Shown piece by piece: positions 38,116 to 64,000 of a stretch of DNA of 64,000 nt (the stretch's first letter is position 1; the number at the start of each line of letters is the position of its first letter). The translations under genes and the position numbers were made by a program. Source of the DNA: Desarmillaria ectypa (Eukaryota; Basidiomycota; Agaricomycetes; Agaricales; Physalacriaceae); NCBI GenBank assembly GCA_030407005.1, contig JAUDYN010000005.1:868001-932000 (forward strand), written 5' to 3'. The notes below the pieces were generated by a model. The model saw only the letters and a list, made by a program, of their open reading frames with translations, did not search any database and was not told the DNA's origin.

Positions 38116-40005
38116 ATGGTTACCATTCTCCTCCTTGCCGAACCCGACAAACCTGTTCGTCGCAAAGATGTCGGTCGAACTGTCCTCCATTGTCTACACG
38201 GTCTTCACTCCATCGAAACCGCTCTCTCCACCTTTCATTCCTTCATTTCCGACTCATACAATCACGTCCAACCATGCTCAGATGTCCTTGCAATGTTCGA
38301 TCCGCATGTAGGCGATTGTGCTTGCCATATGCGTGCTCAGATGCTCTGGGATCTCATCGAGTACGTCTCCTCCTCCCCGGAGAAGAGGAGATTCCTTGAG
38401 CATGCGGTTCTACTACTCAGGGAGAGTAGAGTGAAAGCTTCTATTCTCTTGCAGAAGCTGGCGAAAACCAACGGGAACACAGGTCCTTTAGGCTTTGCAT
38501 CGATCATCACACTATCCGACATATTCCAGCAGATTGGGTTTCGTGCGTTCATGACATTAGTTGACACCAACTCGAATTCTTCTAGGAAAAATACGCCAGC
38601 AGAAGAAACATCCTTCGCTTGCCTCAGCACAGGAAGTGCTAGTGAAGGCAGTCATGGTGCTGTCTCCAGGTTGGATTCCTTCCACGATGCTATCGTCAAC
38701 AAGTCTTTCTCACCCGTTGAATCTTCCGACTCCGACGCTTCATCCTCCGACTCTTCGTCATCCTCCCTTCGTAGTCACCGCTCGATCGCCGTCAACACGA
38801 ATTGGAATCCCACCGATGCCTGGTCTGTCGTCCGCTTCTTAACATTTTCATATCTACTCTCAATTCCCAAGAGAGTGATCTTCAAGGCCGGGCCTCCCGC
38901 TGGCATGATCATTCGGGTCGAACCTCTACTCTCTTACGCCGAGACTGAAGCGGCACTGGAGGCGCTTAATCTTGTCGAGGGTGTACCGCTCTCTAGCATC
39001 ATTCGTCCAGGGGACAGGGCGAAGAAGACGGCGCTCGTTAACGAGTGCGAGACCATGCAAGTGTATATCTCCCAAATGTCAGTGAATTGGATGAAGAAGG
39101 CTACGGTTACATTAGGCCTTAGTCCGGCGGCTCAGAGGTCAGCGCTGTTTTTCACTACAGTACTCTCCTCCTGACACTGTTTCTCCAGGCTGTGCGGTAA
39201 CTACGCTGTTCCTAACGCTCGTCAAGTTTCTTGTGTTTCCTCTTACCTGTCAATCCTGCCTGTACGTACGGCCTGGTTGACGAAGGATGTACCCATTCTC
39301 ATTGCGATCGAACGATTCTGTTCGAATGGTGAGTTAGCCGTCCTTTCCCATTACATGATATCTTATTCCCATCCCCCAGGCTATCATATCATATTGCATC
39401 GCGTCACCCGAAATGTCGATGCTTGGGACGAATACAAGTCAGTCAAAAACCAAGACATTGCAGCGATAGGCAATGCTAACTGGTTCGACATCACTCCTGT
39501 CTCTCACGATGAAGTCCTCTCGTCATCGTGGGCTGGACAGCCCCATATTGTCCTCATCGCTGTCTCCACGGATGGCGATCTTGAAGATTTTTATGGTCGA
39601 CTGATTCACGATAGTCCGTGTTGCCTAGGATCCAGTCGACCGCATAACGGACCCTGTCGCGAGATCGACGACTATACCAGTATCGTTGAAAAAGCCAACT
39701 TTTCCCAGCTCCTCATGCTGTTATTCGGCCAACATGAACAGTTTCCTTTTCCTTTGCGAAGTCAACAAGACGGGTACGACTATATCGCTGACTGCATCAG
39801 GTCAGAGCTTGGAGAGGAAGCGAGTGGGCTTTTTATGAAAGCGCGGTCGGAGGCGTATGAATATGGAACTGGTAGGTCTACAAGAACCTACTCGTTTCAG
39901 CACGTGTATCTGGAGCTTCCTGGCGTTGTGGGAAGGCAGGTGAAGGGTATGTTGGGTCGAAAGGAGAAACCCCTTCTTGGATTCGGGCGCGAACTGTCGA
40001 GATGA
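38116..40005 (+). CDS. unknown 595-aa protein, left copy of an inverted pair
   Basis: I do not recognise this protein. Model: exons 38,116-39,137, 39,189-39,328 and 39,380-40,005, giving 595 codons plus TGA. Intron 1 (51 bp) is needed to bypass a stop at 39,172. Intron 2 (GTGAGT to CCCCAG, 51 bp) is in frame without a stop and could be retained. The protein begins MVTILLLAEP, has conserved-looking Cys/His in CACH near residue 68 and a Ser/Asp-rich low-complexity stretch at about 199-223. No signal peptide or membrane segment is evident. It is identical to the copy at 44,110-45,999 from codon 6 to the stop. The start codon is preceded by a TATA-like run without room for a normal leader, so this copy may lack its own promoter. 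It is convergent with ARG5,6 (297 bp between stops). Confidence 0.8.
38131..40005 (+). repeat. inverted repeat, left arm (1,875 bp)
   Basis: Reverse complement of 44,110-45,984 with no difference found in the stretches I compared, including both introns. The coordinates sum to 84,115 all along, so there is no indel. Identity starts at CTCCTTGCCG, 15 bases into the coding sequence, and stops with the last base of the TGA codon; the next bases are CC here and TA in the other copy. Confidence 0.9.
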
Positions 40006-40302
40006 CCGAACTCGCATACGTCGTCTCGTCAGCGTAGTCTACCTTTCATAGTTCAAACTTTTATACTGGTAGCTATGCACACATCGCTATCGGAAAGTAG
40101 ACAAGCAATACAATATGGTTGAGTAATCAATCCACCATTGCAACTGTCAGAAACCACCTCAATTTCTTAGATTTCCATCTTTAAGTACGTAGTTTTAACC
40201 TAACCATTCTTCACAAGATAAGAAAGTTTTATTCCATGCGAAACTTGAACTAGAATACTTTTTCTTTGACAACGATATACCGAACAAGTAGATGTCGTTC
40301 AG

Positions 40303-43274
<2,972 letters not shown>

Positions 43275-43439
43275 TGTTGAATGGGTACAGTATGTGAATG
43301 GGAATGCAGAAAACCGGGCACCTAGCAATCGGATAAAGACCCATCTCGTGCTGTATATGAATAGTGGATTACCTTTCTGCGCTGTTTTCGCTGTTGAAAG
43401 CTATGTATAGGCTGTAAAATGTTTGACAGGACGTGGTAG

Positions 43440-43445
43440 GAGTCA
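43440..43445 (-). promoter_or_regulatory. possible general-control (Gcn4/Cpc1-like) half site
   Basis: Minus strand TGACTCC, about 166 bp upstream of the ARG5,6 start, matches six of seven bases of TGASTCA. Arginine genes are known targets of general amino-acid control in fungi. A six-base match can occur by chance. Confidence 0.3.
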
Positions 43446-43484
43446 GAGAAATGAACAGGTCCGCCAATTGCATTATTTTCTCGT

Positions 43485-43497
43485 CTTATCTGATAAG
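43485..43497. promoter_or_regulatory. palindromic double GATA element upstream of ARG5,6
   Basis: CTTATCTGATAAG is a perfect inverted pair of GATA-factor sites about 210 bp upstream of the ARG5,6 start, with a further GATAA just beyond. The same element survives as CTTATCAGATAAG at 61,132-61,144 in the ARG5,6 relic although most CpG sites there have decayed. Fungal GATA factors control nitrogen and iron metabolism; the role here is inferred. Confidence 0.45.
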
Positions 43498-44109
43498 TGA
43501 AGATAATCCCGATTTGGACACGGCACGTCCCGGCCACCACTCCGGAGTTCAATAATAGGACCTGACTGGAAATACATGTCTGCGAGCATACCTTACGACG
43601 ATTTGTATTTCCTGAATCCTCATCCGACACAGACTTACCTAGCCCGAGAGACAACCAAGAGAACACATACATGTAAATACAATATTAAAGTTGAAATCAT
43701 GTCACTTTACCACTGTCAACCACATTTTTGAGATGCACACATATCAGCAGCTTTGACCGTAACTTACAGAACGATTATCCACATTTGCTTAAGCACAAAT
43801 ATTGCCGTGTATTGACGGATCGTAATTTCCGTTAGAAATTGACACTGTTGGGTGGCTCAGAAGCTCTTGTTGCCCTGAGGTTAAAATCCCGCGACCTCGA
43901 CGGTCAAACTTCAGAGAGACTACCTACTTAATAATATATATCTAAGAGATTCAAGTAATTTCATGCGAAACACATGGCCTGATGAAGTTGTGTACTTTCT
44001 ACCAGCTAAAAGCCCAACTCGGACAGTCGTAGACTCTATGCACTCAAGACACATTGAAAAAGCATATTTGAGACGGCCGTGCGACTTAATATTCCTTTTA
44101 ACGATTCTA

Positions 44110-45984
44110 TCATCTCGACAGTTCGCGCCCGAATCCAAGAAGGGGTTTCTCCTTTCGACCCAACATACCCTTCACCTGCCTTCCCACAACGCCAGGAAGC
44201 TCCAGATACACGTGCTGAAACGAGTAGGTTCTTGTAGACCTACCAGTTCCATATTCATACGCCTCCGACCGCGCTTTCATAAAAAGCCCACTCGCTTCCT
44301 CTCCAAGCTCTGACCTGATGCAGTCAGCGATATAGTCGTACCCGTCTTGTTGACTTCGCAAAGGAAAAGGAAACTGTTCATGTTGGCCGAATAACAGCAT
44401 GAGGAGCTGGGAAAAGTTGGCTTTTTCAACGATACTGGTATAGTCGTCGATCTCGCGACAGGGTCCGTTATGCGGTCGACTGGATCCTAGGCAACACGGA
44501 CTATCGTGAATCAGTCGACCATAAAAATCTTCAAGATCGCCATCCGTGGAGACAGCGATGAGGACAATATGGGGCTGTCCAGCCCACGATGACGAGAGGA
44601 CTTCATCGTGAGAGACAGGAGTGATGTCGAACCAGTTAGCATTGCCTATCGCTGCAATGTCTTGGTTTTTGACTGACTTGTATTCGTCCCAAGCATCGAC
44701 ATTTCGGGTGACGCGATGCAATATGATATGATAGCCTGGGGGATGGGAATAAGATATCATGTAATGGGAAAGGACGGCTAACTCACCATTCGAACAGAAT
44801 CGTTCGATCGCAATGAGAATGGGTACATCCTTCGTCAACCAGGCCGTACGTACAGGCAGGATTGACAGGTAAGAGGAAACACAAGAAACTTGACGAGCGT
44901 TAGGAACAGCGTAGTTACCGCACAGCCTGGAGAAACAGTGTCAGGAGGAGAGTACTGTAGTGAAAAACAGCGCTGACCTCTGAGCCGCCGGACTAAGGCC
45001 TAATGTAACCGTAGCCTTCTTCATCCAATTCACTGACATTTGGGAGATATACACTTGCATGGTCTCGCACTCGTTAACGAGCGCCGTCTTCTTCGCCCTG
45101 TCCCCTGGACGAATGATGCTAGAGAGCGGTACACCCTCGACAAGATTAAGCGCCTCCAGTGCCGCTTCAGTCTCGGCGTAAGAGAGTAGAGGTTCGACCC
45201 GAATGATCATGCCAGCGGGAGGCCCGGCCTTGAAGATCACTCTCTTGGGAATTGAGAGTAGATATGAAAATGTTAAGAAGCGGACGACAGACCAGGCATC
45301 GGTGGGATTCCAATTCGTGTTGACGGCGATCGAGCGGTGACTACGAAGGGAGGATGACGAAGAGTCGGAGGATGAAGCGTCGGAGTCGGAAGATTCAACG
45401 GGTGAGAAAGACTTGTTGACGATAGCATCGTGGAAGGAATCCAACCTGGAGACAGCACCATGACTGCCTTCACTAGCACTTCCTGTGCTGAGGCAAGCGA
45501 AGGATGTTTCTTCTGCTGGCGTATTTTTCCTAGAAGAATTCGAGTTGGTGTCAACTAATGTCATGAACGCACGAAACCCAATCTGCTGGAATATGTCGGA
45601 TAGTGTGATGATCGATGCAAAGCCTAAAGGACCTGTGTTCCCGTTGGTTTTCGCCAGCTTCTGCAAGAGAATAGAAGCTTTCACTCTACTCTCCCTGAGT
45701 AGTAGAACCGCATGCTCAAGGAATCTCCTCTTCTCCGGGGAGGAGGAGACGTACTCGATGAGATCCCAGAGCATCTGAGCACGCATATGGCAAGCACAAT
45801 CGCCTACATGCGGATCGAACATTGCAAGGACATCTGAGCATGGTTGGACGTGATTGTATGAGTCGGAAATGAAGGAATGAAAGGTGGAGAGAGCGGTTTC
45901 GATGGAGTGAAGACCGTGTAGACAATGGAGGACAGTTCGACCGACATCTTTGCGACGAACAGGTTTGTCGGGTTCGGCAAGGAG
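44110..45984 (-). repeat. inverted repeat, right arm (1,875 bp)
   Basis: Partner of 38,131-40,005; spacer 4,104 bp (40,006-44,109) holding only ARG5,6 and its promoter. Recombination between such arms would invert the ARG5,6 segment. Confidence 0.9.
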
Positions 45985-45999
45985 CAGTGTCGTGGCCAT
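44110..45999 (-). CDS. unknown 595-aa protein, right copy of an inverted pair
   Basis: Same protein as at 38,116-40,005 apart from its first codons (MATTLLLAEP here, MVTILLLAEP there). Exons: 44,978-45,999; 44,787-44,926; 44,110-44,735. The family is not recognised. In the first codons the two copies differ at several synonymous as well as replacement positions, while everything from codon 6 to the stop appears identical, introns included. That pattern suggests gene conversion between two older paralogues. This copy has an ordinary upstream region and may be the expressed one. It is followed downstream by the ARG5,6 promoter, 835 bp away. Confidence 0.82.
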
Positions 46000-47249
46000 A
46001 GTATAGAAACAATCATAACAGGGCCTCTATATGCTCTTGGGTATCTAACTAATACCCTGCAAAAATTGAAAGTGTATTTTGGGTGGGCGCGGATATGCAC
46101 GGATCCGAATCTTCGCCGGATGTGATGCATTGAACGTTGGACGAGAGTACAAATAGATTGAAAGTCCGCACAGCGAAGCTCTCTTTGTGTAACATTGAAC
46201 GTAGGTGGTGCTCACGGTATTGAGACTATTATTGGTAGCTGCCCAAGCTGCTGACTCACAAAAGGAAGGAAGATCCTCTCGCGATTATGGCGACATTGAT
46301 GGTCGGGGGGACAAGATTTCTCTGCGAGAACATAGGTCGGCTCTGCGTTGAGAAGCGCACCCCGTTACGACATCCAGAGCTGCACTGCAATATCCATTAC
46401 AAGGTACATAATTACAAGAGGAACGCACCCGGAGATGCTAACACCCGGAGAGCGGGGTTCTCTTTGCGAGGATATAGTGGGTCTTAGAACGCACACGGAG
46501 GTGTGCATTCACAATCAAGACAAGGCGATTCGATATCGTCCTTGAATTCACCCCTAATTCCAGAGATGAAAGGCTACAGCGAAGCACTGCCAGTGAGCAG
46601 ACAATATCGGATGATGGGAAAGGCATCAGTCACCTTCTACCACACCGAACGCCCCTTGCCAGCGATCCAGAGCTTGATTCTTAGCTTCGACGAATCAGAA
46701 GGTTCTGACATGTCAACTCCGAAAGCAGCGGATCCGACTGCACCCTCATTTTTGATGTCAAAAAGGATTTTCATGTCCCGAGGGCATTGAGTGTTCTTAC
46801 AAGTTTTTGGGTCACATACATAATAGCGAAGAATGAGCAAGCCCGGAAGTCAACAGTTCCGATATCATCGATATCCCTCAGTACATTCTAGATCGTAGAA
46901 CAGAGCCGAACCTCGGAACCAAAAGTCAGTTGGGAGATTGATTGCCAGCTTCATACCTGTCAAGCGGCCAAGTGTCTTCCTTCCATATTATAGAAACCAT
47001 AGAAAAGATTTCGAATTTTTAGCAGCGACTGAAGAAAACAGTAATAGCTCGAGCTTTTGAATACAAGGGGCAGTCTGTGAGGGGATAAAAACGAAGGCGT
47101 ACGAAAAAGAATGAGACAAGACGGGAAAGTGGTGGTTGGGAAGTCAAGGCGCTGCCTCATGCTTATTACCTAATCCGTAAGGTGGCGATGTTCCAACTTC
47201 AACTTCAACTTCAATGCCCAGTCAATGCTTAGGCAACATAAATCATATT
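46000..47249. other. intergenic, no gene supported
   Basis: Lies between the start of the right duplicate and the 3' end of the O-methyltransferase. It holds two loosely related units (about 46,316-46,365 and 46,459-46,505, each with TTCTCT and GCGAG). Short open frames here have no recognisable content. Confidence 0.45.
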
Positions 47250-48681
47250 TCAAGCGACAGTACATTCAATCAGTGAAGTAAATCCGGGATTTCTCCAAAT
47301 ATTCTCAACTTTCAAACCCGCCCTTCCCAAAATGCCCATGAACTCGCTCTCTGTCCTTTCCATAGCACCTACCAACGTCATCATTTGCATGGATACCATA
47401 TACTTGAACCGGTCACTATCAGCGTCTAAAACAGCTTCAGCAATGTAGAGCCGAGCGTCGGGGATTTCCATCATAGCTGAACAAATGAACTGAAGGATCC
47501 GGACGCAATCATCGTCGGACCAGTCGTGAAGGACAAATCGCATAAAGTAGATACGACCCCCACGACAGTCAATCACAGGTTGCGGAGTGAAAAAGTCATG
47601 CGGCATAAATGTCACACGAGGCTTGCATTCCGGTGCATGCTCATCCCAGAACTACGTTTATGACCAGTCAGCATCAGTGAAAGTATAAGAACAGAATACC
47701 CACCTTGGGCGCCGCCTCGAGGACGGAGGCTCTGTCTTGGATAATAACTTTGATCTTGGGGAACCGACGCGTAAACTCGATCCCGGCACCTCCAATCCCA
47801 CCTCCGACATCGATTATAGTGGCCTCCTCGCCATGCTTGGTCCAGTCGTAACCGTAAATGAGAGATCCATGAAGAAGAGGTTCGGCACCAATCATCGCTC
47901 TATTCAGACGCTCTCGGGCGGCAGCCCCATCTGGAGTCTGGTAGTATTCCCAGATGGATGTGCCCCGCAGGATCTCGAACGGTGTCTTGGAGGCACCCTC
48001 AGTCTTTACTGCCGGGACAATGTGCACACCTGCATGATATGCGTCGTCACACCTGAACAGGCGAGAGATGAGAAATGGAATCATAGAAACGTCAAAAGAA
48101 AAATAACTTGCCAATGTCCAACAAACCCATGCAAGTTCTTCTCGTGCGCAGACAAGAGGATCGACGACATTCGGTTGTTTACGAAAATGTCTGATCCAAA
48201 CGCAGTCTCTCGAAAGAGACCACGGTTTACCAGAGTCCGCATGCATTGGCCTGGTCGACGTAGTAAGTTGGTGAACGAGAATAGACCGAGAAAAAGACAT
48301 ACGAAGGCGAGTAGGATCGGCATCGACTTTGTGAGCGAGTTCACTCAATAATACCTGTCGTACCCCCAGAGCATCTGCGACTCCGAGTTCTGAGACGACC
48401 TGGAGAGCGTTGCTCTCGTGAAAGGCTCCTCCGATGGTAGTGACGTGCTCGGACGGATCAGCTGCATATGATGCTAGCTCGTCACATAGTTGTCCAAATT
48501 TCCTGTATGCGCGAAGAAGTGACTCAGAGGACGGAGCGGCCTGGCTGGAAGACACGAGAGAGGGATCCCTAGAGTCAATGTTTGTAATAACTTCACGTTC
48601 AATGTCACTGAGAAGTGTATGGAGGTGGGCCACAAGAGAGGTAAAACCAGGAAGCAAGGAAGAAGTGCTGTTACTGGCCAT
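47250..48681 (-). CDS. SAM-dependent O-methyltransferase (plant/fungal type 2 family)
   Basis: Likely methylates a hydroxyl group of an aromatic or polyketide-like small molecule. Exons: 48,303-48,681; 48,112-48,250; 47,704-48,052; 47,250-47,651, giving 422 aa, usual for the family. The N-terminal half carries the winged-helix dimerisation region (about 75-170). The SAM site is IIDVGGGIGGAGIEF (252-266), with the acidic QD at 278-279. LHDWSDDD (330-337) contains the catalytic His331. The second intron is GC-AG (GCAAGT to TTCAG); the alternative GT donor nearby would delete residues that look conserved. Divergently transcribed from the FAD monooxygenase with 435 bp between the starts, so the pair is probably co-regulated. 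The substrate cannot be told from sequence. Confidence 0.9.
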
Positions 48682-49116
48682 TGGTCAATGTCTTTGCCTC
48701 GATACAATTCCTCTGTAGTATTTAGTACAAGTGCTTCAATGAGGAAAGTCCCAAGCTTCGGTCTCCATACAACCTGTCAAAATTGGATAAGCTTCATCCT
48801 AGCCGGCTCTTAGTAAACAGCAGTACGAGAGGCTGATATACCATCTTCGAAGCACTGAGGATGAAGGGGGGCGAAAACAAAAATCATCGTGGGAAGGTCA
48901 CTGAAACCTCAGGACCGGAGATCAAATTGATGATCGACACGAACCACGTCGTCGTTCAAACCGAGCCATGGATTCGACTAGGGCTGATTTCGTTTGCCAA
49001 GTCCGATTCCTAGATTTCCCCTCTCGTAACTTACCGTTCATTGAATCGACGTTATATGGCATTATGTACTTTCCTCGTTCGGGATTCCTGCAGTCCTGTT
49101 CTCTCACTATTGCAAT
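48682..49116. promoter_or_regulatory. shared divergent promoter, O-methyltransferase and FAD monooxygenase
   Basis: 435 bp between two divergent start codons, with no other gene. Such an arrangement commonly serves both genes in fungal clusters. No specific operator was identified. Confidence 0.5.
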
Positions 49117-51319
49117 ATGGGTGCCTCTGTCCTCATCGTACGTTCTGTATTATCGGCCCTCCCAGTCATTTTCCTCACTGTTTATAAAACATTTGCTTAG
49201 GTCGGTTCTGGGCTCTCAGGTATACATTTATTGTCTACCGCATAACTTATCTGATGAATATATTTTCTCAAGGTCTAATTCTTGCTTTATCACTCTTGCG
49301 CAACGGTGTATCTGTCCGAATCATCGATAAAGCACCAAAGTTTGGTGTCGGCCAACGCGGGTGCGGAATCCAGGCAAGTCTCTGCCTTCACAGTACTGAG
49401 CTGTACTAATACCATTCTTCCAGCCTCGTACACTTGAGCTATACAAGATTCTCGGAATTCTTCCCCAAGTGCTAGAGCTTGCTCGTCCTGTCCCAATCAT
49501 ACATCTACACCCCTCTCCCGAAGGAAACAACCCTCCAAAGATTCTAGACCTAAATGCAGCAATGGAAGACACGCCACTGTATCCACACGTATGTCCATCA
49601 CAAACTGTAAAGTCCAACGTGTAATTCATGCATAATACCCAGATTAACCCTATGATCTTGGGGCAAGATCGTCACGAAGAGCTTATTCGCTCGTACCTAC
49701 GCCACGAGTACAATTGCGAAGTCGAACTTGCCACAGAGCTAATCTCATTCGAGCAACAAGCCACGCACGTCATCGCTCACCTTTCTTACGGCGGAGGAGC
49801 ACCAGAAACTGTTATATCGGATTGGTTGGTTGGAACCGATGGCGCACATAGCACCGTTCGCAAACAACTCGGTTTGGCATTTATGGGGGAGAGTCGAACT
49901 TCAGATAGTCTTGTAGTCGGTGATGTTCATGTGACAGGTGGATTGGGGGACAGAAAGGTAGGACGTCTCCATTCGTGTACTTATGCCCTCCTGATGACTT
50001 GTGTCTGTTAGCACTGGCCCTTTTGGGGAGATGATTTCGTTCGCAAAGTGTAGCTGTTCTCGTTCGGTTCCTGTAGTTATTACTCTCTGACAACACTTTG
50101 ACAGTGTAAGCTTGCGACCCTTCGAAATTGAGGACGACGACCGATACAATTTCATGATGGGTGGCCTGGACTTTGATCATGATAAGGTCGCTTCGAGTCG
50201 AGAGGAACTCATCAAGCTCTTCTATGAAGTCTCCGGAAGGAAAGACGTCGAGTTCGGGGACCTGATATGGATGGGTATTTGGAGGTACTGACAATAGATT
50301 TGATCAATGACACTCTTCCTGACGCATGAACCAGGCCGAACATTCGTATGGTCGACAAGTTTGGTGAAGGAAGAGTCTTCGTTGCTGGAGGTAGCCGTCT
50401 TTTCTTTGAAATGTCCATGTGTTCAACATCTTCACGGTGTCTAGATGCTGCACATGTCCACCCTCCCGCCGGAGGTCAGGTAAGTCACACCGGTGTCCGA
50501 TTCTCATTCCATCTCACTCCTCATTCAGGGGATGAACTCAGGCGTCCAGGACTCGGTTAGACGCTGTTATTCTTCATATGACCTCATTGTGACTTCTTTT
50601 AACAGCTCAACCTTGCATGGAAACTCGCCCTTGTGCAGAAGAACATAGCCCCCGTTAACATCCTCGAATCTTATACGCGGGAAAGAATGCCGGTCATTGC
50701 GTACATGCTCAATATGACGGATGGGTTGATTAAATCGACGATGAAAGAGGGCGGAACTGGTGAAGGATTTTCTCGAGATTTCAGCCTCCGACAGCTCGGT
50801 GTCAATTACAGAGGAAGTCCCCTCGTCGTTGATGAGAAGTATACGAGACGAGATGAATTCGTTGACCCTTACCGATCGGGCGAAGATGGAACTGTTCGAG
50901 GAGGGGACAGGGCACCAGCAGCACCTGGTTTAGTCACGGTCAAGGATGACTCCATATCGACGAGTCTATTCGAGATTTTCCAGTTCACCTGTCACACCGT
51001 CCTCATTTTCTCCGACCGGAACGATGATCGGTTGGATATCCTGAACATGCTCACGTCGTATCCTCAGGATCTCGTTCAGAGCGTAGTTATCTACCCGCAA
51101 TCAACGATGCCACCTTCCACGCCGGCAGTGCACCAGCTAGCCAACTATGTATTGGTTGATCGAGATGGATTTGCTCACAAGAACTACAACATGGTTGGTT
51201 CAAACGCTACCAAAGTTGTTGTGGTAAGGCCTGATGGATACATTGGTGCATTGATAAATGGCACGGATGGTTTGGCGAGCTACTTTGGGGCTATCTTATT
51301 AGGGCATGCCATATTTTGA
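49117..51319 (+). CDS. FAD-dependent aromatic monooxygenase (phenol/PHBH type)
   Basis: Flavin hydroxylase expected to hydroxylate an aromatic ring with NAD(P)H and O2. Eleven exons: 49,117-49,137; 49,201-49,219; 49,273-49,373; 49,424-49,588; 49,643-49,957; 50,012-50,049; 50,105-50,284; 50,335-50,390; 50,445-50,479; 50,529-50,555; 50,606-51,319, giving 556 aa. FAD motif VGSGLSG (8-14), DG motif GTDGAHSTVRKQLG (166-179), and GD motif VAGDAAHVHPPAGGQG (296-311), completed across the junction of exons 8, 9 and 10. The C-terminal 170 residues form the thioredoxin-like domain usual in this group (VLVDRDG and VVRPDGYIGA). The third intron is GC-AG. Exons 1 and 2 are only 21 and 19 nt but supply the nucleotide-binding loop, so the start is firm. 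Confidence 0.92.
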
Positions 51320-51683
51320 TGTTGGTTCCTGCAAGTAACTACTAATAGAACGGTTGAAATCAAGAAATTCTTTAATAGAATGATTGTATGCTGGTAGTTG
51401 GCTCTGAGTCTCTAATCGAACAACTGACAATGTGTGTCCGTGTTGACACATATCCTCAGCATCCTTTGTTCGAATTCATTAGCAACCAACCTTGGTACCC
51501 TCCATTGTGACTTGCTTGGTGCCTTGAATGATGCTGTGGAGACGAAGCTTGATTAGCCCGAATGAGATTGAAGTACGAAGGCACAACTTCGAAGTCCTGT
51601 CATTTATAGATCGCAGGAGATACAGGGAATTATCCGAAGCAAGGCGAATGTCTACACAAGAAAGTAACCGTACAGTAGTAAGT

Positions 51684-53787
51684 TCACAGGTCCCTCTCTT
51701 CATTGATAAGCTCTAAAGCCTTGTCACTCCTAGGTTTAATCGCGCATTTGAACGGAGATGGGTGGCTACAGGCAAAATTAGAGATGTCGGGAATAAGAGG
51801 AACAAAGAAGTATACAAGTTACCTTACAGTCCCCGTGGTTTGTTCCATGTCCGGCTCAAAAATAACACCATTTTCAGAATATTTGCTGATATCAAATACT
51901 GCCAGCACCATGGCGCACGAAATGAAAATTGAGGCTTCAGCGAGCTCTCTGCCTAAATATTCTGTCAATAAATCTGGCCCCACAGCCAGGCACTGCATAC
52001 CAGGGCATATTCTGTGAATGGACTTCAGAACACCAGTATCTCAACTCTCTAAGAAGGAAGCCGACTCACCGACGACCAAATCCGAATGCTACATTGGACG
52101 GATTAAAGGCTGGCTTCTTGCTCTCCGTTTGGATAAATCTTTCAGGCGAAAACTCGAAAGGTTGGTCATATACCGCAGGATCATGCAGTATTTTCCTATC
52201 GACGGTGTGAGGCTAAAGGTAATATAAGATATGCGTCTGCATACCATACATTTCCCAGGACAAACGATCCCCGCGGAATAAAATAGCCAGAGTGAATGTC
52301 ATCCTCGCTAGCGCAATGGGGCACAGCTTCATTCAAGGCATGAGTATAGATAATTGATGGCAGCATACACCCACCTGTAGGTCCGACGGTATGCCAACGT
52401 GTAACCTCGCGTGCCAGAGCATCGATGTACGGGAGACGCTCTCGATCGTCAAATCGAGGTAACCTATCGTTTCCGACGACCGCGTCTATCTCTACTTGTG
52501 CCTTCGCCTGAACTTCAGGGAACATCACCATGGCTTTGAAGAAGGCGTAAATGGAGGGTACGGTCTAGTTGCGTTAGACTGGTCATTTGAAAAAAAAAAT
52601 GAGGAAGCGAAACCTACGGTACCCGTCCCAGCTGTCATGAGCAATGAGCATGGAAGGATGAGGTTAGTTGTTCACCGACCTGTATGAATAGATGCGGCAA
52701 GCCACTTGATATCACATTCCTCCTCCTCACTCACTCCAACTTCCAGGAGACTCGACGCAAAGGAAAAAGGTGCCTTGCCTGCTGCCTACAGACTGGTGAG
52801 AAGCACTAAGTGTGGTGCATGACCGCCCTTACCATTTGCTGTTTCACATAGCTATGAGGTTTTTCTACCATATCCATGAGGGTCGATTGCCATTCCTTCG
52901 CGGTTCGCTTGAATCCCGCCCCAGGGAACCAGTCTGGAAGGTAGCGCACTGACCGTGTTGTGCTTAGTTGCAAAACGCGTAGCACGAGATATTACGAGAT
53001 AAATCACGTACATATTGGAATGAGATTGACCAAAAAACCGCCGGGAGCCGTGGAAAGAGAAAATTGGTTCATTGCTTCCATTACCAACGCGATGAAAGGA
53101 TCGTTGTCCTCTTCAATCTCATATCCGTATGAAATCCGTAGGATGATAGCCCCGGCCATTCTTGAGACAGTAAACAGTCAATATCACTTTTATTAGAGAC
53201 GAAACGATTCCGCTTACTTCCGAATATGCTTTTGAAGATCCTCCGGTTTAGCAGAAATTCTCTTCAAAAGACGATGCGTCTCTTGTTCCTCGATTGATAA
53301 AAACTGCTCCATTGCCGCCTGTTTCCCAAAATGCTTATGAATCTGTCGGCGATAGGTGCGGAAGCGTGCACCGTAAGGTATAAGACCGAGTATATTCTTC
53401 CAGCCGACGAGTTCGCCGCCCATCTCTACAATGGGTCTATCAGAATAGATGAAGCCCTTCTTGTCCAACATGTCCATAGCCATATTAGCTGAGTTTATTA
53501 TGACTAGACGCTGTCCGGGGGTAGAAACCGATACGATGTCGCCTTATGGCACACTATGTGAATATAAGCCACCAAATTTGTAGTTAAATCTTACCGTATT
53601 TTTCCCCCCATTTAGCGAAAGTGAGCCATTCTTTCTCAGAGGGTATGTCAAGAAGGTTCCCGATAAAGGGTAGTCCCTTGGGGCCAGGAGGGAATGGCGC
53701 ATTGTGATGTGTTGGATGGAAACGGCGCCGAACAAAGATGAGAATGGCGAGTGCAACAGTGATACCAAGAAAGATAGAGGAAGTCAT
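51684..53787 (-). CDS. cytochrome P450 monooxygenase (first)
   Basis: Membrane-anchored haem oxygenase of 507 aa in twelve exons: 53,595-53,787; 53,218-53,542; 53,012-53,160; 52,833-52,948; 52,680-52,785; 52,618-52,631; 52,375-52,564; 52,245-52,326; 52,070-52,195; 52,001-52,011; 51,823-51,952; 51,684-51,765. N-terminal anchor at about 3-19, proline hinge PFPPGPKGLP (31-40), ExxR EVTR (354-357), PERF (409-412), haem loop FGFGRRICPG (429-438) with Cys436. The I-helix reads AGTGTT (297-302), so the usual acidic residue before the Thr is Gly. The Cys codon sits in an 11-nt exon and the I-helix in a 14-nt exon. It resembles fungal P450s of the O-methylsterigmatocystin-oxidoreductase type; the subfamily cannot be assigned. 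Tail-to-tail with the FAD monooxygenase, 364 bp between stops. Confidence 0.92.
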
Positions 53788-55306
53788 TTTTGAGGATTAT
53801 GGCATCGCGCTAAGGTACATTCTTTTATATCGCAGTATTATCAGTTTCTTAGTACTTTAGGAAGATAGCTAAACTGACTTGCAAGGGTAAACACGTCATA
53901 CACATCTCCTTTGAGAAAAATTACCGCATTCTGGTTACTCCGTATGACCTCCGCTAATCCAGTGAGCGGCAGAGCAGGACGGTATCCTGAGCCCAGCCTC
54001 CAAGATGGTCGACCTGATGAGCATGGCTAGTACAATACAGGGTCTCTTCAGTGGTGACACTACACAGTAAATAGTAATTCCTGGCCAGGGAGATCCGAGA
54101 TTTGGAAAGAAAAAAAAAAGGGAAAAAGGGAAAAAAACCGAGGTGTTGGTCCAGTTTCGCCTTCCGACAGAAAAGAAGAACAATGGTGCTGGATAATGGA
54201 AACTGTGCGGGTCCAAATCTTCGATGATGGTGGTACGCTCCACCGACTGAAGCATCATTGGCAAAGTTGAAACCCCGTTTTCAATGCAGGGAGAATCTCA
54301 TACACTGGCAGGGAAAGGGCGGCCACGCTACACACGCACGTGGTTCACTAGATTTTTCTACCCGAACCATATGCATAAGGTACAGGCCCTGCGAGTAACT
54401 GTAAAGCAGCTTGCCAGGCTACCGAACCAGTGCGCTGCGAGGCTCAAGAACAACTCCTTGTATCTGCGAACAAGAAGACTCGGAGAATGCTGAGCCATGC
54501 CAGAGACGAGATCTCGAAGTTCGACCCCAGGTTCATAGAGTAACATACTAGTATGGGCTGTGTAACAATTCTGCACGTCGACGCTTCCAGAGTAATCTAT
54601 AGATTAGCTATTACGACATTTCTAAATGACATATTCGCCACCTAAATGGCCCCGACCAATAGTAATGGGTCCCAAAATTCATCGAACCTTCATTCACCGC
54701 CTTCCTTTCCTATTCTACGGTAATAACTTGGACATCAGTGTGACATTTCTGAATGCGCAGATAAACAGTATGTCGTGCCTCATACGGTAGACTTGCCCTT
54801 AGGTGTGTTTCTTTCTCTTACGTAAAACCTTGTTGTCCGGATGTTCAACATTCAACCCCCGTTCTTTAAATAATCTAATACTTTTTTACCCCATCTTGCG
54901 TTGAGTCTGATCCCAGTTCAATGCAGGACTGTATGAAGGGTTCTGCGCAAAAATTGAACGATTCCTGTGACATGAAGGCACTCCTTCCACATGTTCGAGA
55001 AACAAAGCGCTTGGAACGCTGTTTTGGTAATCCCTCTGCCTGTTCGTTGGGTCGTTACACCTATAGCAATCGTCGTACCGGGGGATGCCTGAACGATGTT
55101 TCCGTTTCCGTCGCTGTCGACGTGGTCGAGACAGCGTCTGTGTTGATGAAGCAGTATCAAATTCAATCAAGTTGGATACCAGTCAACTAAAAGCGATTAT
55201 TGAACTATGAAGATACTCTTGATATTGAAAACTAGAGACTTGAGCTTGAATGGCCGTCGCAGACGCCAGTTGTGCCACCTACAGCATGAAATGGAGCACC
55301 AGTACG
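53788..55306. other. intergenic, no gene supported
   Basis: About 1.5 kb between the P450 start and the transporter stop. It holds a purine-rich A/G run near 54,103-54,140 and short unconvincing frames (for example 54,886-55,190 on either strand) without family content. Confidence 0.45.
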
Positions 55307-57072
55307 TCACACTACCCAAGGGCTCTGTCCCGCTCCCAATTCCCTATTCCTCTTTTTATAAATCATCCTTAACAGCTCCACACAAACAGCTCCCGTCAAT
55401 AGCACCGCTCCGTTCGTATAATGTCCCGTGGGGTACCCAGGTGATTCGCTCGGTTTGTAAATAAAGAGCGCTGACGATGAATAAATGCACGGAGAAAGAG
55501 AGAGAGAGAGAGCCTACCGATCAGTTGACCCATTGCTCCAAATGCTATGTACATCGGGATAGCCAGCGTGGTTGCATTTGTATCCCTCAGATTTCCCGTA
55601 AACCATGCCACTAATGACGGGGTAGACATGAAGGCGAATGTCGTTCCTAGGCAGAGCATCGCATAGCGCGCCTTGAATGATGTTGGTGGCAGGGTACCTC
55701 AAAGGGTTTCGAATTTCAACTTCATTCGAGAACCCGGAAATCAGGACATACCGTGCACAAGAAAGGTCACACCTGCTAGCACCATCGACACCATTGCACA
55801 CATCGACCAGACCCGGTACCTATCCGCTGCCCACGATATCGACACAGTCGCTACAAACGCCGCTGCAAATGGTGGGACAGTAAAAAGCTGTGCATCCCGC
55901 CCCTCGTATCCCAATCCATCGACAATTGTTGGTGCAAATAGCGATATACTCGTGAGCGGTACTAAGACCACCAGGTCTGCGAAGTGATGCAAATAAAGCC
56001 TCCAATCCATTAACGTGGTTTTAGCGCCTGCCCACGTCATCGTGGCATAGCCCATAGACTTGGAGGACTCTTGCTCGAGTCGAAGGACAGCAAGGACACG
56101 ATCGTCTGGGGAGAACCATGATGACTTCTCTGGGTAGGAGGGTAAGAAGAAGAACACCAATATTGCCAGTAAACATGACGGTGCGCCTTCGATGATGAAT
56201 AACCACCGCCAGGCTTCGAGACCCCGGCTGCCATTTAAAGGTCCTACCCCATACGCAATGCATCCACCAAATGCGGCCCCGAGAGGTCCAGCTGCTATTA
56301 TCAGCGATAGGCGGAGGGCGCGTTCGTCTAGTCGATACCAACTGCAGAAGAATTAAGACACAATCCAATAAGAGAAAGGGTACGGGACGGACATACAATG
56401 TGAAGACGTAGATCATACCAGGTACAAGACCTGAGACCAGATGACATGTCAGTGATGACTACTGGGCGTGAGACTTCCTACACACCTCCTTCAAACACTC
56501 CCAGCAAGAACCGAAGACCAAGGACTGTGCTATAGTTCCGAGACGCAGCGAGGACCATGACAGTCGCTCCCCATCCGAACATAAGAAACGCAAGCCAGAT
56601 TGGGGGGGAGAAGTGTTTAAGCAAATAATTGGAGGGAACTTCGAACAGTGCATACGAGACCACGTAGATCGCGAGAACGGCAACAAACTGATTGTCGGAC
56701 ATATGCAAGACTTGGAGGATCGAATCACCGGTATTAGCATTGAGGATCCTGGCGTTTCCCTAGAATGAGGATCAGTTATCCTTGATCGGTGTTGCATGGA
56801 TGGTGGAAAGAGAGATACTTACAATATTGACCGAGGCAAAGAAACTGAGCATGTACATCAACACAAAAGTGGTGATAATTCGAAGGTCGAGTTGCCAGAG
56901 TAACCTGGCGCAATACGGATTTAGTTCATGCTCTTGTAGAGTCGGCAAAAACATAGGCATACTTCTTCTCTGCAGCACGATCGATAATGCTGGCTTCACC
57001 GTTGGTTGCGGCTTCGTCGTACTGTTTGTCATCCGTAAGAGTAGGAATAGCAGAACCATGTCTTGATTCCAT
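55307..57072 (-). CDS. MFS transporter, anion:cation symporter (allantoate-permease-like) type
   Basis: Plasma- or inner-membrane carrier of 477 aa, seven exons: 56,963-57,072; 56,823-56,904; 56,486-56,759; 56,397-56,430; 55,752-56,341; 55,518-55,697; 55,307-55,470. A cytosolic N-terminus of about 37 residues is followed by twelve expected helices. The signatures FEVPSNYLLKHFSP, GLRFLLGVFEGGLVPG and EAWRWLFIIEGAP are typical of the ACS/Dal5 group, which carries organic anions such as vitamins and small carboxylates. The last junction was chosen so the C-terminus reads YKPSESPGYPTGHYTNGAV, as in relatives; a more distal AG gives an early stop. The start is the first in-frame ATG. It may import or export the substrate or product of the neighbouring oxygenases; this is inferred from position only. 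Confidence 0.9.
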
Positions 57073-57700
57073 GGCGATCGCGACCGAGCGCCATTTAACT
57101 CGCGACCTAGTCTTTATATCCTCGAGGGTATCCTGCGTCAAGCTTAGGCGTGTTTTACGTGTCACGACATGCCGCTAGACTTGACGTAACCTTTTCTTTT
57201 GAATAGACACCGTGAGGGTCCGATACCAAAGTCCGGGAAATGTATACAGTTACCAGATGGGCCTTTCATCGATAAATGGATGAGAAAGATAGCCTTTCAA
57301 GACATAGTCCGTAAACATGTTTGGAATGCCCGTCTCATCCTGCAAAAGCTTTGATATCGCACCTCAGCAGCGCCATCAGAGGTGCCGCTCACATTTCTCG
57401 AAACAGGGAACAACCACCATCTAAGGAGGCGAGTAGGGGTAAATGTACACGTCGAACCGTCTACGCCTCTGCGTGGTTCCGACAAGGATCCGTGAGCATT
57501 ACTGCTGCCTAAGCTTATCGTATAAGCAGTATAACGATGTATTGACATATTACAACATAGAGGAGGGAGCTGCTTGTGTATGCCTCTCGCGAGTGGATTC
57601 CACTTCCTCTTGACAATCGAGAGCCAGATGAGCGGATCGAGGGCCAGTGGTGATGGTGTAGCAGCAAGTCGCTGAGATGGACGATGATCCACTGTTGTGA
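57073..57700. other. spacer upstream of the MFS gene
   Basis: Left part of the divergent 1.8-kb interval between the transporter and the second P450. No gene supported; presumably holds the transporter promoter. Confidence 0.4.
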
Positions 57701-57990
57701 TGCGCCGGTCTTTTGGCCCAAAAATCAGCACAGAAAAACCGGTGTCGTTTTGGGCCGGTCTTTGGCTTGGAGGTTTTGGTACCAAAAGATCTTGATAAAT
57801 ACAGTGCGGTTTGTACCGATTTTTTGAGCCAAAAATAACGAATGAAAAACGCGCGGTCTTTGGGCCGGTTTTATATAAATCTTCGATCTGGTCTTTGCCC
57901 AAGAACAACGCGTCGAAAGGCCCCGATCTTACAGCAGGTCTTTGGTGAGATCTTTTAAGCGGTTTTTCTGCCGGTCTTTTGAGCAGAAAA
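57701..57990. repeat. diverged short repeat cluster built on GGTCTTTGG
   Basis: At least six degenerate units (at about 57,706, 57,757, 57,855, 57,890, 57,938 and 57,973), several as GCCGGTCTTT followed by GGCC or GAGC and an A-rich run. Spacing is irregular. The long minus-strand frame over this region (57,297-57,998) reflects the repeat and not a gene. Confidence 0.55.
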
Positions 57991-58897
57991 ACAGGCATAT
58001 GCCCAAGGGCTTTTAGCTTGACATTTCATCTTTTCAAAAGGCTTGCGAATCGTGATGATACGCTGGCAATTGTGCTACTTAACAATGGTGAATGCTGCTC
58101 ACCGCCCAATGGCATAAAGCTATTTGCGTCGTACGAAAACGAGAGACACTTACTACTAGTCGGAATCACTACCAGGGCTAGTAGTGGGTAGGAAAAGCTT
58201 GCTACTAACTTACTACATTGCCTTCATTATAGACGTTACTTCCTACGCGACGTGCAATATGGTGTCTAGATCTACATTGAACCCCATTCTCTATTGCCAT
58301 TTGGTCCTATCTTCTATCCGCTCTATATTCAACGTCCGCTTGAGAATTGGTTCACGTTCGGTCAAACTTGATCTGGACTACGACTTTGGTAACTTCGCCG
58401 TCTTAATTTGCTTCGCCCCTTTCAGGGTATCTGCCCCTCACTGGCGTGTACTATTGTCTTCAGAAGATATGTAAGTTCCAGGTACTTCTTATACTTATAC
58501 TTGCATGCTTCTATGTTCTGCCAGTGTGTCTGACTGTATTAACGGAATCTGTGGGTTCCCTTTGTTAAGCTAATACCAATTCTTGACTTGGTGGGTACTA
58601 CTCCACTCCTGCAGTGACATTCCCGAATGTCATGGTGGGTTGTCTTCACCGATAATGACGCGTCGCATGTTACAGAAACCTTTTTTGATCGGATCTTCAA
58701 TTTCTCCGCATTTCAATGTATAGGTCATATCCGATCGCCTCGCTGTACACGTATGAGAAGCAAGGAACGTTGAACGTTTTGAAAAACGCCCTCCGACCTA
58801 GCCCCATATCATTCCGTCACTAGTTACCTTGAACCCTCGGGTTGTCTCTTTAAGAGTCAATGTTGAAGCACTCGAGCCTCCCCCAGGTGATCTAAGG
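57991..58897. other. spacer upstream of the second P450
   Basis: No gene supported. A plus-strand open stretch at 58,184-58,474 shows no family features. The promoter of the P450 at 58,898 is expected here. Confidence 0.4.
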
Positions 58898-60944
58898 ATG
58901 GCTTTCAGTATCCTGTGGTCGATTGACTCGGCCGTGTCGTTCAAGCATCGCATTCCTCTTTGGCTCATTAGCAAAAATACAGCATGGTTAACACTTGCTC
59001 TGATCGCTGTGCTGTATTACTATGCTGACGATCTGATACGTTGGGTCAAGGTTTGTCGTCTGTTTCAATCCATCTTTGACCTTCATCTAACGACGCATCT
59101 AGTTTACCGCATTCAAATGTGAAGCGCTTCGTGGGGTCAATATTCACGGCCCTATTCAGGACACGCGCATTACGCGATTTTCGGATGGGTGAGGGCTTTT
59201 CTTGGGCATGTTATATAATGCTGAATGCATTCTCAGTCTCGAGATGACCACGTATTGTCGGGAAAAGTACGGTTCAATATACCGGGTTTTCTGTGGCTCA
59301 ATACCTGAAATGTATGCGAATGTCGCCTGTGCTCTCCCACACTAACTAGCTCTGTGTAAGTGTCCTGACGAACCCAGAAGATGTTCGCGCCTTCTACAGT
59401 CGCGATGGCAGGGCCCACTTGAAGAACCACAACATTGGATTTGGAGATTACATTGGAAAGTCGGTGACAATCTTTCCTCGAACACGAATATTTCACTGAA
59501 TTATTTTACAGAATACTGGGACACTGCGTGGGGGTCAAGTACGGTAAAGATTGGACCAGACTTCGCTCTCACATCGATCCGCATTTCTCCTCCTCTGTTG
59601 CTATCGATTTACTGCCTATCATGAATACGGACGTCTCGGAATGGCTAGAAACACTGCCCATGACGATGAAATCTCCCAATGAGCGTACAAAATTCAAAGT
59701 GCAGGCCGGGGAGCTTGTATCCTATTTACCTCTGAGGATGATCGCCAGTGCGATTTTCGGTGGCCTTCTTGATGATAAAGTGCGTCACTCATTAAGTGGC
59801 CAAGTTCCATCTAACGAGGCGATTAGCTTCGGGCAGAGCTGGTCGATCTTTTTATCCTCCATGAACGGCTGATGACCCGTGCAATCTTGGGGAAAATCAA
59901 CCAGTGGACTCTCGCAAGTTACCTGCCTACTGAAGCCAATCGCGACGTACAAGTTTTCCAGAGAGATTGGTGTAGCCTCTTGCGTCGTTGTGCGCGAGAA
60001 GCAGAAGAGGTACAAGATCTTCCTTGCGTCTCCGTTTCCGACACACTCATGACAAGACAAATTAGCGAAACATCAAGGCTGCAGTTTCCGAACTATATAA
60101 AACGATGCAAGAAGGTGGGATGTCCTTCGTCGAGTACTGTCACTCCGTCGACGAGATCTTGTTCAACAACGTCGGTGCGTATATGAACTTATTTATTTTC
60201 ATGTGCTCGGAAATCCTAATTATACATTTACGAGCAGATGTGACAACGATCCATATATCCTGGATCCTCATCAACCTTGCTCAACATCCCGACGTGCAGA
60301 ATCGTCTAGCCCAAGAGATCGATACGGCACTCAAAGATGATTCCCACGGCTCCAGATCTGAGAGGATGAAGGCATACCTACGCAGGACGGACACCTTGTT
60401 ACATTATTGCTTCCTAGAATCTGGACGCTTACACCCGATTGCCTGTGAGTAATGACGTTGACGTTTCTGCGGACCAGTTTACTAAGATCGTTTGGTAGTC
60501 TATTCGCTTCCCCAAGTGACGGCGGAGCCCAAAGTCATTGGTGGACATCCTATCCCGGCTCGTACTTCCGTTCTGATAGATGTGTACACGCTGGGGCGCA
60601 AATCGCCAGTGTGGGGGGACGATGGTGATGCATTTCGGCCTGAGCGGTTCGTGAGCTTGCAGCCTATGCAGTATCGTTACTCCTACTGGAGGTTTGGTAT
60701 TGGCCCTCGTGAGTAGACCTAATGGCTTAGCATGCTATTTGCTAATAGCTACGCAGGTAAATGTGTGGGTCAGCATCTCGGGGATAAAATTGTGAAGAGT
60801 GTGGTCCATCAAATCATCGAGCGATACACTGTCTCTGTTGAAGGTGACGTCGGTATGTGCAGTGGCAAGTTTATGTGCACCCCGGCCGCAACCTTGGTTT
60901 TGGAGCCGAAAGAATTCATTTTGTCAAGTTCGGTTGTACGATGA
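58898..60944 (+). CDS. cytochrome P450 monooxygenase (second)
   Basis: 525 aa in ten exons: 58,898-59,050; 59,103-59,188; 59,237-59,311; 59,361-59,459; 59,512-59,779; 59,827-60,009; 60,066-60,174; 60,238-60,444; 60,499-60,708; 60,757-60,944. Membrane anchor at about 28-44. The I-helix NNVDVTT (322-328) is of the FANxDVTxxxISW type seen in some fungal P450s. ExxR is ESGR (385-388), PERF at 441-444, haem loop FGIGPRKCVG (459-468) with Cys466. It belongs to a different family from the P450 at 51,684. The third intron uses the acceptor GTGTAAG; an upstream AG would give an immediate stop. The ATG at 58,898 is the first in frame. Transcribed away from the transporter; likely part of the same oxidative pathway. 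Confidence 0.9.
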
Positions 60945-61077
60945 TGACACTGTTGCCATGTTAGACCTCTAACAGATTTCCTTTGATTTGAACTGAAATG
61001 TATAATGATACTGTACCCACCATTGTTATCTGCACATGCCTATAACTATGCCGGAGGTGGCCTGTTTCTTATACACT

Positions 61078-61690
61078 CTAACACCTGAGTGGACATGGTC
61101 CAATGGGTTGTCTAAATCGGGCTTATCTTTGCTTATCAGATAAGATGAGGAAATAATCGCAGCTGGATAATGACTCATTTGAGTGACTATCAAAATCCTA
61201 ATAAGGAAATGCCAAAGAGGCAGAATCTAATATAAAAGGAGCTAGAATTTTGATTTTATTTTGACTTGTGCAAAATAGTTGCCATCTAGCTGCAAATGCA
61301 ACTAGCAGAGCCATTTATTCTTCTCTCCTACCATATTCTGTTGAATATTTTACTGCCTATACATAGCATTCAACAGTGATAATAGCCCTGAAAGGTATTC
61401 CACTGTTCATGCATAGCACAAGATGAGTACTGATCTGATTGATAGTTTTCAGCATTCTCATTCATATACTATACTCATTCAACAATGTTGGCAATAATAT
61501 TCACTCTCAAATTATCTTTTAGAGGAGCATATCATGCACTTATTGTTGGTGGTCAGTATCAAGGAGCTATTTAGGCTGTGCACAGAGTGCCTGCTCATAG
61601 CATACAGTCAGTTTCTCAGACAGATAGAATGCAATAAATATTGCATTCTCAAAAATCTATCTAACATTTGCACAGAAAACTATTACTCAT
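61078..61690 (+). pseudogene. relic of ARG5,6 promoter, exon 1, intron 1 and start of exon 2
   Basis: Matches the reverse complement of about 43,068-43,560: first the upstream region with the GATA palindrome (61,132-61,144), then the start codon region (ACAATGTTGGCA), exon 1, intron 1 (TTGCATTCTCAAAAAT and TCTAAC) and the first bases of exon 2. An extra segment of about 130 bp lies near 61,160-61,290. From 61,531 to 61,690 there is no CpG at all, against 11 in the matching part of the real gene; nearly all changed sites are CG to TG or CA. The copy ends abruptly at 61,690, where a chromovirus LTR starts, so further exons may lie beyond the nested elements. It cannot encode a product. Confidence 0.85.
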
Positions 61691-62499: not shown

Positions 62500-64000
62500 C
62501 TCCCCCTCAAGATGGCAATAGACCTAATTTATGAATAAAATTCTCATGCTTGGACCTTGGTAATGCCTTTGTAAAAATGTCAGCAACCATTTCATCAGTG
62601 GAGCAATATAATAGTTTGATGACCCTAGATTCTACTTTTTTATGGACAAAATAATTCTGCACATCAAAGTGCTTTGACCACACATGATATTGTGGATCTC
62701 TGGCAATGGTGATTGCAGATTGATTGTCCTCAAATAACAAAGTAGGTTCTTCTTAGATGTATCCCAATTCAGCTAAGAGATTGCAATTCCAGATTGCTTG
62801 ATGCATTGCATATGCTAAAGCTGCATATTCTGCTTCTGTGGATGACAAGGCAATGGTCAACTGCTTCTTGGATGACTATGCAAATGCTCCACCTCCCAAC
62901 AGGTAGGTATAGCCTGAGACTGACTTTCAGTCATCTGAGTTGGATGCATAATCTGCATTAGTGTATCTGGTACTGAGAACCTTATGTTCTTTATTAGCTT
63001 GGAAGGTGAGCTTTAAGTTCTTTGTTCCAGATAGATATCTAAACACTCACTTTACAGCTGATCAGTGTTTAAGACCTGGGTTGTTTGAGAACTGGCTTAA
63101 CAACTGTATGGCATATATGATATTGGGCCACATGCAAATTGCAGCATACATCAATGAGCCAATAGTAGACTGGTATCTGCCTTAGATGATAGGCTCAACA
63201 CATTCATCAGCTGGTCGCTTTTGCAGGGTAATATTAGGATCAAGTGGAGTGGTAACAGGTGATGTATTGTGGAGGCCAAAATGAGTGAGTATCCCCTTGA
63301 TGTATTATTGCTGGGATAATAAGATGGTGCCATGGTTGTGGTTCCTCTCTATTTTAATTCCAATGATTTTTTTTGGCTCTCCCATATCCTTAATGTTAAA
63401 CAGCCCTGCTAACTCCTTTTTTACTCTATCTAGATCTTCAGATGTTTCTGCAAAGATCAGCAGGTCATCAACCCATACAGTCAGGAATACTGTCCTGCTG
63501 TTTTAGACATGTTTATAGATACAATGGTCAACTTTGAGCTTTGAGAATCCAATAGAGGTGAGTTTCCTATTGAATTCACAGTTCCACTTGTGTCCTGACT
63601 GTTTTAACCTATAAATGGTCTTGTATAATTTGCAGACACATCCTGATTCATTATTATAGCCTGGAGGCTGGCACATGTATATTTCTTCCTCGAGTTCTCC
63701 ATTGAGGTAAGCTCCTCTAATGTCCATCTGACCAATTTTGAGGTTGTTGATGGCAGCTATATCTAGTGTGGCATGAACAGATTCAAGACAGACAACTGGT
63801 GCAAATGTTTCCATAAAATCAGCTCCTGGAATCTGTGAGTAGCCTTGTGCTATAAGATGGGCCTTGTAGCATAGAACTTTTCCATGCTCATCATATTTCT
63901 TCATGTAGGTCCATCTGCAGCCTATAGTTTCACATCTCTCTGGTAGATCCTTGAGCTTGTAAGTCCCCATTTATCTAATCATTGACATTTCCTCATCTAT
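62500..64000 (-). pseudogene. Copia2 reverse transcriptase and RNase H (partial, runs off window)
   Basis: Minus strand. Reverse transcriptase at 63,503-63,970 and beyond (FAPVVCLESV, MDIRGAYLNGELEEEIYM, YRLKQSGHKW), catalytic WVDDLLIF at about 63,445-63,470, then RNase H ending DIFTKALPR at 62,507-62,740. Stops split the frame (for example at about 63,182). It is better preserved than Copia1. Integrase and gag should lie beyond 64,000. Confidence 0.87.

Follow-up and report, generated by a model that had tools for sequence, protein, structure and literature searches.

Why should two facing copies of one gene be identical along almost their whole length, introns included, and differ in their very first codons, and has the DNA between them been turned around? 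These questions arise at a locus of Desarmillaria ectypa where two copies of a gene for a protein of 595 amino acids (aa), L and R, face each other across ARG5,6. The window analysed is a stretch of 64,000 nucleotides, C28:868001-932000, on the 4,048,416-base contig C28 of a 32-contig, 40.59-Mb assembly, and the locus was read from this one genome, from the assembly only. PMC10700112 lists D. ectypa strain FPL83.16 with the genomes that it analysed, and this is likely the same assembly. We consider it probable that L and R are an old pair that was recently homogenised by ectopic gene conversion and that the ARG5,6 block between them was inverted in the past. The features on which this reading turns are the following.

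38116..40005 (identical arm 38131-40005), + strand: gene copy L, 595 aa, introns 39138-39188 and 39329-39379 (self-BLAST, pairwise alignment)
40006..40195: X, the 3' flank of L (genome search and flank comparison)
40390..43280, ends approximate, - strand: ARG5,6 (Pfam: N-acetylglutamate synthase NAT and semialdehyde dehydrogenase domains in two of its open reading frames)
43520..44109: Y, the flank 3' of R; it lies at the 5' side of ARG5,6 (genome search)
44110..45999 (identical arm 44110-45984), - strand: gene copy R, 595 aa (self-BLAST, pairwise alignment)
C28:1003271-1005172, - strand: gene copy C, a 600-aa open frame after splicing, 89 kb right of R (genome search)

An earlier note on this stretch, made from its letters, had described an apparently perfect inverted repeat of 1,875 bp limited to one coding sequence, and the repeat proved to be exactly that. 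In self-BLAST, 38131-40005 matches 45984-44110 on the minus strand over 1,875 bp without gaps and at 100% (1,875/1,875 bases). When the 1,890-base gene copies were aligned from the ATG, six mismatches were found, all of them among the 12 bases of codons 2-5, and no differences were scattered within the arms. The identical stretch runs from codon 6 to the final base of the stop codon, the same limits that the note had given (the stop codon on one side, 15 bases from the ATG on the other); both 51-bp introns of L lie inside it, and at neither end does it extend into intergenic DNA. The differing first codons were likewise borne out: the proteins start with MVTIL in L and MATTL in R, written in different codons, and once spliced, both are 595 aa long and differ at 2/595 residues. 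Four related proteins (P0003, P0005, P0006 and P0007) start with MAT(I/V)LLLA, P0008 has MITTLLLA preceded by an extension, and the distant P0010 begins otherwise; because relatives share such similar starts, the MVTILLLA of L reads as a true, diverged start. The NCBI models taken for the two copies differ in splicing (P0001, 595 aa, with the R start; P0004, 506 aa, taken as L), and this difference in length is an annotation matter.

The protein itself had no Pfam match, and structure prediction gave a poor model only. Its relatives include proteins of D. tabescens (84%), A. gallica (79%) and A. borealis (74%) and, more distantly, of Dendrothele (48%), Hypsizygus (47%) and Crepidotus (30%); the protein clusters have sizes that give no per-species copy numbers for D. 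tabescens or Armillaria. L and R are thus closer to each other, with two differing residues, than to the D. tabescens protein. The genome search returned at least three copies of the gene, all on C28, and against the third, C, the L/R sequence has over codons 6-595 a nonsynonymous divergence (dN) of 0.064 and a synonymous divergence (dS) of 0.247. Because dN is well under dS, the protein is, on these substitutions, under purifying selection, and beyond this we found no evidence for the selection for two equal copies that the earlier note had offered as one explanation of the identity.

The likeness of the flanks was expressed as an alignment score set against 500 shuffles, for stretches of 60, 120 and 250 bp. 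At 60 bp, the score between L and R was matched by 192/500 shuffles upstream and by 145/500 downstream. The longer upstream stretches showed no likeness (320/500 and 373/500 shuffles reached the score), and downstream there was a faint likeness, reached by 8/500 shuffles at 120 bp and by 0/500 at 250 bp. Because this faint likeness remains, L with its 3' flank and R with its 3' flank were probably once duplicated gene and flank together, and the flanks then decayed.

Copy C sides with R at one end and with L at the other. Over 60 bp, its upstream flank is R-like (score 27, 0/500 shuffles) and not L-like (14, 193/500), and its downstream flank is L-like (score 74, 0/500) and not R-like (12, 449/500); in codons 2-5 it mismatches R at 3 of 12 bases and L at 6 of 12. 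At 120 bp, the upstream score was reached by 1/500 shuffles for L-C and by 0/500 for R-C, and downstream R-C scored 26 (7/500 shuffles) against 117 for L-C. Aligned with the 3' flank of C, X is 75.9% identical over 187 columns, 16 gaps included, and the genome search gave no match for X except beside C. The same search found no second match for the upstream flank of R and no other match for Y (43520-44109); the inner flank of R had a single further match, diverged, at the second ARG5,6 described below. Of the upstream flank of L, only the first 31-37 bases were matched elsewhere in the genome (40/57 candidates scored).

The coding sequence of C is itself uneven. In five segments spanning codons 6-450 and 561-595, dS between L/R and C is 0.08-0.22; at codons 451-560 it is 0.99, with a dN of 0.19. 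Over residues 451-560, L/R shares 85.5% identity with D. tabescens and 67.3% with C, and over residues 1-450 it is 85.2% identical to D. tabescens and 92.2% to C. Trees were computed for these two segments, whose limits were picked post hoc, and these trees and the segment identities draw on seven rows: the spliced L/R sequence and 6 of the 13 proteins found, leaving out P0001 and P0004 (the models taken for R and L), the fragments P0009, P0011, P0012 and P0013, and the distant P0010. For residues 451-560, L/R forms a clade with D. tabescens and A. gallica (96/97.9) and a grouping of L/R with C is rejected (p-value of the approximately unbiased test, p-AU, 0.007); for residues 1-450, L/R with C is part of the best tree (74/94.9) and the clade of L/R, D. 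tabescens and A. gallica is rejected (p-AU 0.039). On these data C is a mosaic, produced by exchange among paralogues, which lends support to the gene conversion that the note had put forward, and its divergent stretch would show how far apart the old lineages stood before L and R were equalised. That the copies predate their identity, another of its suggestions, is thus supported by codons 2-5, by the flanks and by the dS of 0.99 in the mosaic C. L was more likely the donor and R the recipient of the conversion, because L/R has the D. tabescens-like form at 451-560 and C does not, on the assumption that C keeps the old form of R. By eye, residues 451-560 of C had looked like an A. borealis-type paralogue; this idea was dropped, as C and L/R are each 64.5% identical to A. 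borealis there.

The surroundings of C carry further pieces that correspond to the window, as listed here.

47250..51306, + strand: O, an O-methyltransferase-like gene (-) and a flavin adenine dinucleotide (FAD) monooxygenase-like gene (+), 99.4% to O'
58991..60915, + strand: Z, a gene read by eye as P450, 95.7% to Z'
61109..61688, + strand: A2, the 5' portion of a fragmented second ARG5,6, with a reverse match to 43520-43071 (58 columns at 84%, 404 columns at 78%)
C28:1000981-1001427: 3' piece of the second ARG5,6, matching 42797-42351 at 85%
C28:1002666-1002839: 3' piece of the second ARG5,6, matching 42358-42186 at 95%
C28:1002829-1003086: 3' piece of the second ARG5,6, matching 41642-41384 at 94%
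C28:1007124-1011180: O', 99.4% to 47250-51306
C28:1013009-1014936: Z', 95.7% to 58991-60915

Along the contig, the order is the 5' fragment A2, about 71 kb of repeat-rich DNA, the 3' pieces of ARG5,6, the X flank, C on the minus strand, O' and Z'. When the genome was searched for a 417-aa part of ARG5,6, no other intact gene came up; one of the two further matches carries two internal stops. Because the two ARG5,6 fragments do not overlap and keep the correct order and orientation, we infer that they are one split pseudogene, and C, by this arrangement, is part of a tandem duplicate of the locus that has since decayed. The repeat-rich stretch includes a reverse-transcriptase match at 63503-63970. 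Two opposite-facing 9.87-kb repeats, 99.87% identical (C28:944243-954116 and 989211-999083), also lie between the ARG5,6 fragments. The second ARG5,6 contains an insert of about 1.24 kb (C28:1001428-1002665), part of which resembles window 17819-18654; the matches flanking it share 8 bases (42351-42358) in non-identical copies, possibly what is left of a target-site duplication.

In the duplicate, the ARG5,6 remnant points 5' to 3' towards C, and the X flank adjoins C. In the window, R, which sits next to O as C sits next to O', has Y and the 5' side of ARG5,6 beside it, and X adjoins L. Because the only other match of X adjoins C, the counterpart of R beside O, the arrangement supports, as a past event, a reversal of the block X-ARG5,6-Y between the window and the second copy; the flip of ARG5,6 on which the note had speculated thus gains support in this form. 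One inversion is required whichever copy keeps the older orientation, because the block order is opposite in the two. The flanks of C, R-like upstream and L-like downstream, point to the same reversal. Both limits of the reversed block coincide with the points where L and R end on their inner sides, and we infer that the arms mediated the inversion.

Our working hypothesis combines conversion with a past inversion. The locus would have been duplicated in tandem into the window copy and a second copy (C, O' and Z'), the facing arms would have inverted the block X-ARG5,6-Y in one of the two, and ectopic gene conversion would recently have equalised the coding sequences of L and R, halting where the flanks cease to be alike. 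One tandem duplication and one inversion account for the block order of both copies. The confinement of the identity to the coding unit seems to need no special rule, because, once the flanks had decayed, the coding sequence would have been the one part still alike enough to convert.

Several observations weigh against this hypothesis. O and O' are 99.4% identical and X and its counterpart about 76%, which is too unequal for one duplication unless O was also converted, and the second copy is without a second arm, so that its blocks could have come into their order in another way. The contrast between the flanks of C weakens with length: upstream at 250 bp, the L-C score was reached by 18/500 shuffles and that of R-C by 3/500, and downstream at 250 bp, the R-C score of 39 exceeds all 500 shuffles, although that of L-C is far higher (191). 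The branch joining L/R and C at residues 1-450 is without strong support (74/94.9), and the choice of segment limits after the fact makes the p-values optimistic. Finally, the support comes from one assembly of one species.

Of the other explanations, the one that survives best keeps the conversion and dispenses with the flip. L-X-ARG5,6-Y would have been duplicated in inverted orientation to the right of Z, and this duplicate would later have gained O', Z' and an R-like 5' end separately. Gene C can be read, together with its 3' flank and the fragments of ARG5,6, as the reversed L side, and conversion-like tracts are common in the region, but an extra duplication is needed for O' and Z' in their R-side order and orientation and a further exchange for the R-like start and promoter of C, where a tandem duplication and an inversion suffice for the order of all blocks; we regard this history as unlikely. 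Lower still we place the recent copying of a single coding sequence to a new site, by gene-only duplication or transposition, which would fit an identity that is perfect and confined to the coding sequence and which we hold to be very improbable. Both sites apparently held the gene earlier, since the starts MVTIL and MATTL use different codons; the promoter of R and the 3' flank of L are C-like, the 3' flanks of L and R retain likeness at 250 bp (0/500 shuffles), and the introns are present, so that the copy would not be RNA-derived. Nor does the gene look like a transposable element: we found at least three copies, on one contig, with no Pfam match, and neither a large copy number nor a transposase-like product. 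That the assembler created a false second arm or chose the orientation of the block hardly deserves credence, for although the identity is perfect and the locus was judged from the assembled sequence, the four flanks are mutually different and none is a repeat adjoining its arm, the arms measure 1.9 kb in a 32-contig, 40.6-Mb assembly, and copy C independently records an old exchange.

Returning to conversion with a past inversion, the closest case known to us is the flip/flop region of Saccharomyces chromosome XIV. Its 'Centroid' arms, carrying YNL018C/YNL034W, face each other and are kept near-identical within species by gene conversion, and its authors propose that conversion takes place in non-allelic recombination and that about 4% of conversions end as crossovers and thereby invert the segment (PMC9731477). 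The region was stable over about 53,800 mitoses and 950 meioses (PMC9731477), so that switching would not be expected in a single culture. As in that account, facing homogenised gene copies bracket a reoriented segment in D. ectypa, and the arms within a genome are more alike than orthologues across species; both loci have near-identical protein-coding copies around single-copy DNA, judged in D. ectypa by the 417-aa part of ARG5,6 that was searched, and in outline the D. ectypa locus seems to work like the flip/flop. There are also differences: the Saccharomyces arms are 4.2 kb long with two genes each and are identical through intergenic DNA, whereas the D. ectypa arm is one coding sequence; the Saccharomyces segment holds 15 genes in 24 kb, that of D. 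ectypa ARG5,6 in 4.1 kb; and Saccharomyces species contain both orientations, whereas the other orientation in D. ectypa is known just from the decayed duplicate in the same genome. A further mark of the yeast system is an arm gene for sporulation from the Centroid family; the D. ectypa gene gave no Pfam match. The locus would extend to a mushroom the yeast puzzle of why facing copies stay identical while the segment they enclose changes direction, and arms of a single coding sequence together with a decayed duplicate let the order and direction of events be partly read from one genome. It also shows that conversion tracts in old duplicates can match gene limits, and that an old pair can pass for a recent copy. 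A bolder proposal, which we think improbable, is that selection across Armillaria and its kin keeps the identical facing pair as a slow reversible switch, with exchanges that turn ARG5,6 and swap the 3' ends of the arms and with both orientations segregating as in Saccharomyces.

At mammalian inversion loci, opposite-facing repeats exchange and invert the intervening DNA. Human inversions are reportedly recurrent and lie between inverted repeats (PMC3961182), and we know of no mammalian recurrent inversion that is confined to one coding sequence. Hansenula polymorpha is said to switch mating type by inverting a chromosomal segment (PMC4238957); this too is a fungal segment inversion, but no sign of a mating-type role was seen at the D. 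ectypa locus. For mammals, recurrent inversions between inverted repeats are credited to Caceres et al. in PMC9731477. Among the titles and abstract openings listed for Armillaria gene conversion, D. ectypa genomes and fungal inverted repeats or inversions, none described this locus.

The neighbouring blocks show similar patterns. O and O' differ at 25 positions in 4,057 bp and at none across 48288-50889 (2,602 bp), and their match begins at the stop codon of the methyltransferase-like gene and ends about 10 bases short of that of the monooxygenase-like gene. The alignment of Z and Z' has 75 differing columns among its first 285 and 7 among the other 1,644. These abrupt shifts in identity mark a second and a third conversion-like tract. 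O, 99% identical near R and near C, was also considered as a mobile element; this was rejected, as a genome search with 1,877 of its bases gave two matches. Across 46000-61000, methyltransferase, FAD monooxygenase, P450 and MFS-type genes adjoin one another (Pfam), an arrangement that resembles a small secondary-metabolite cluster.
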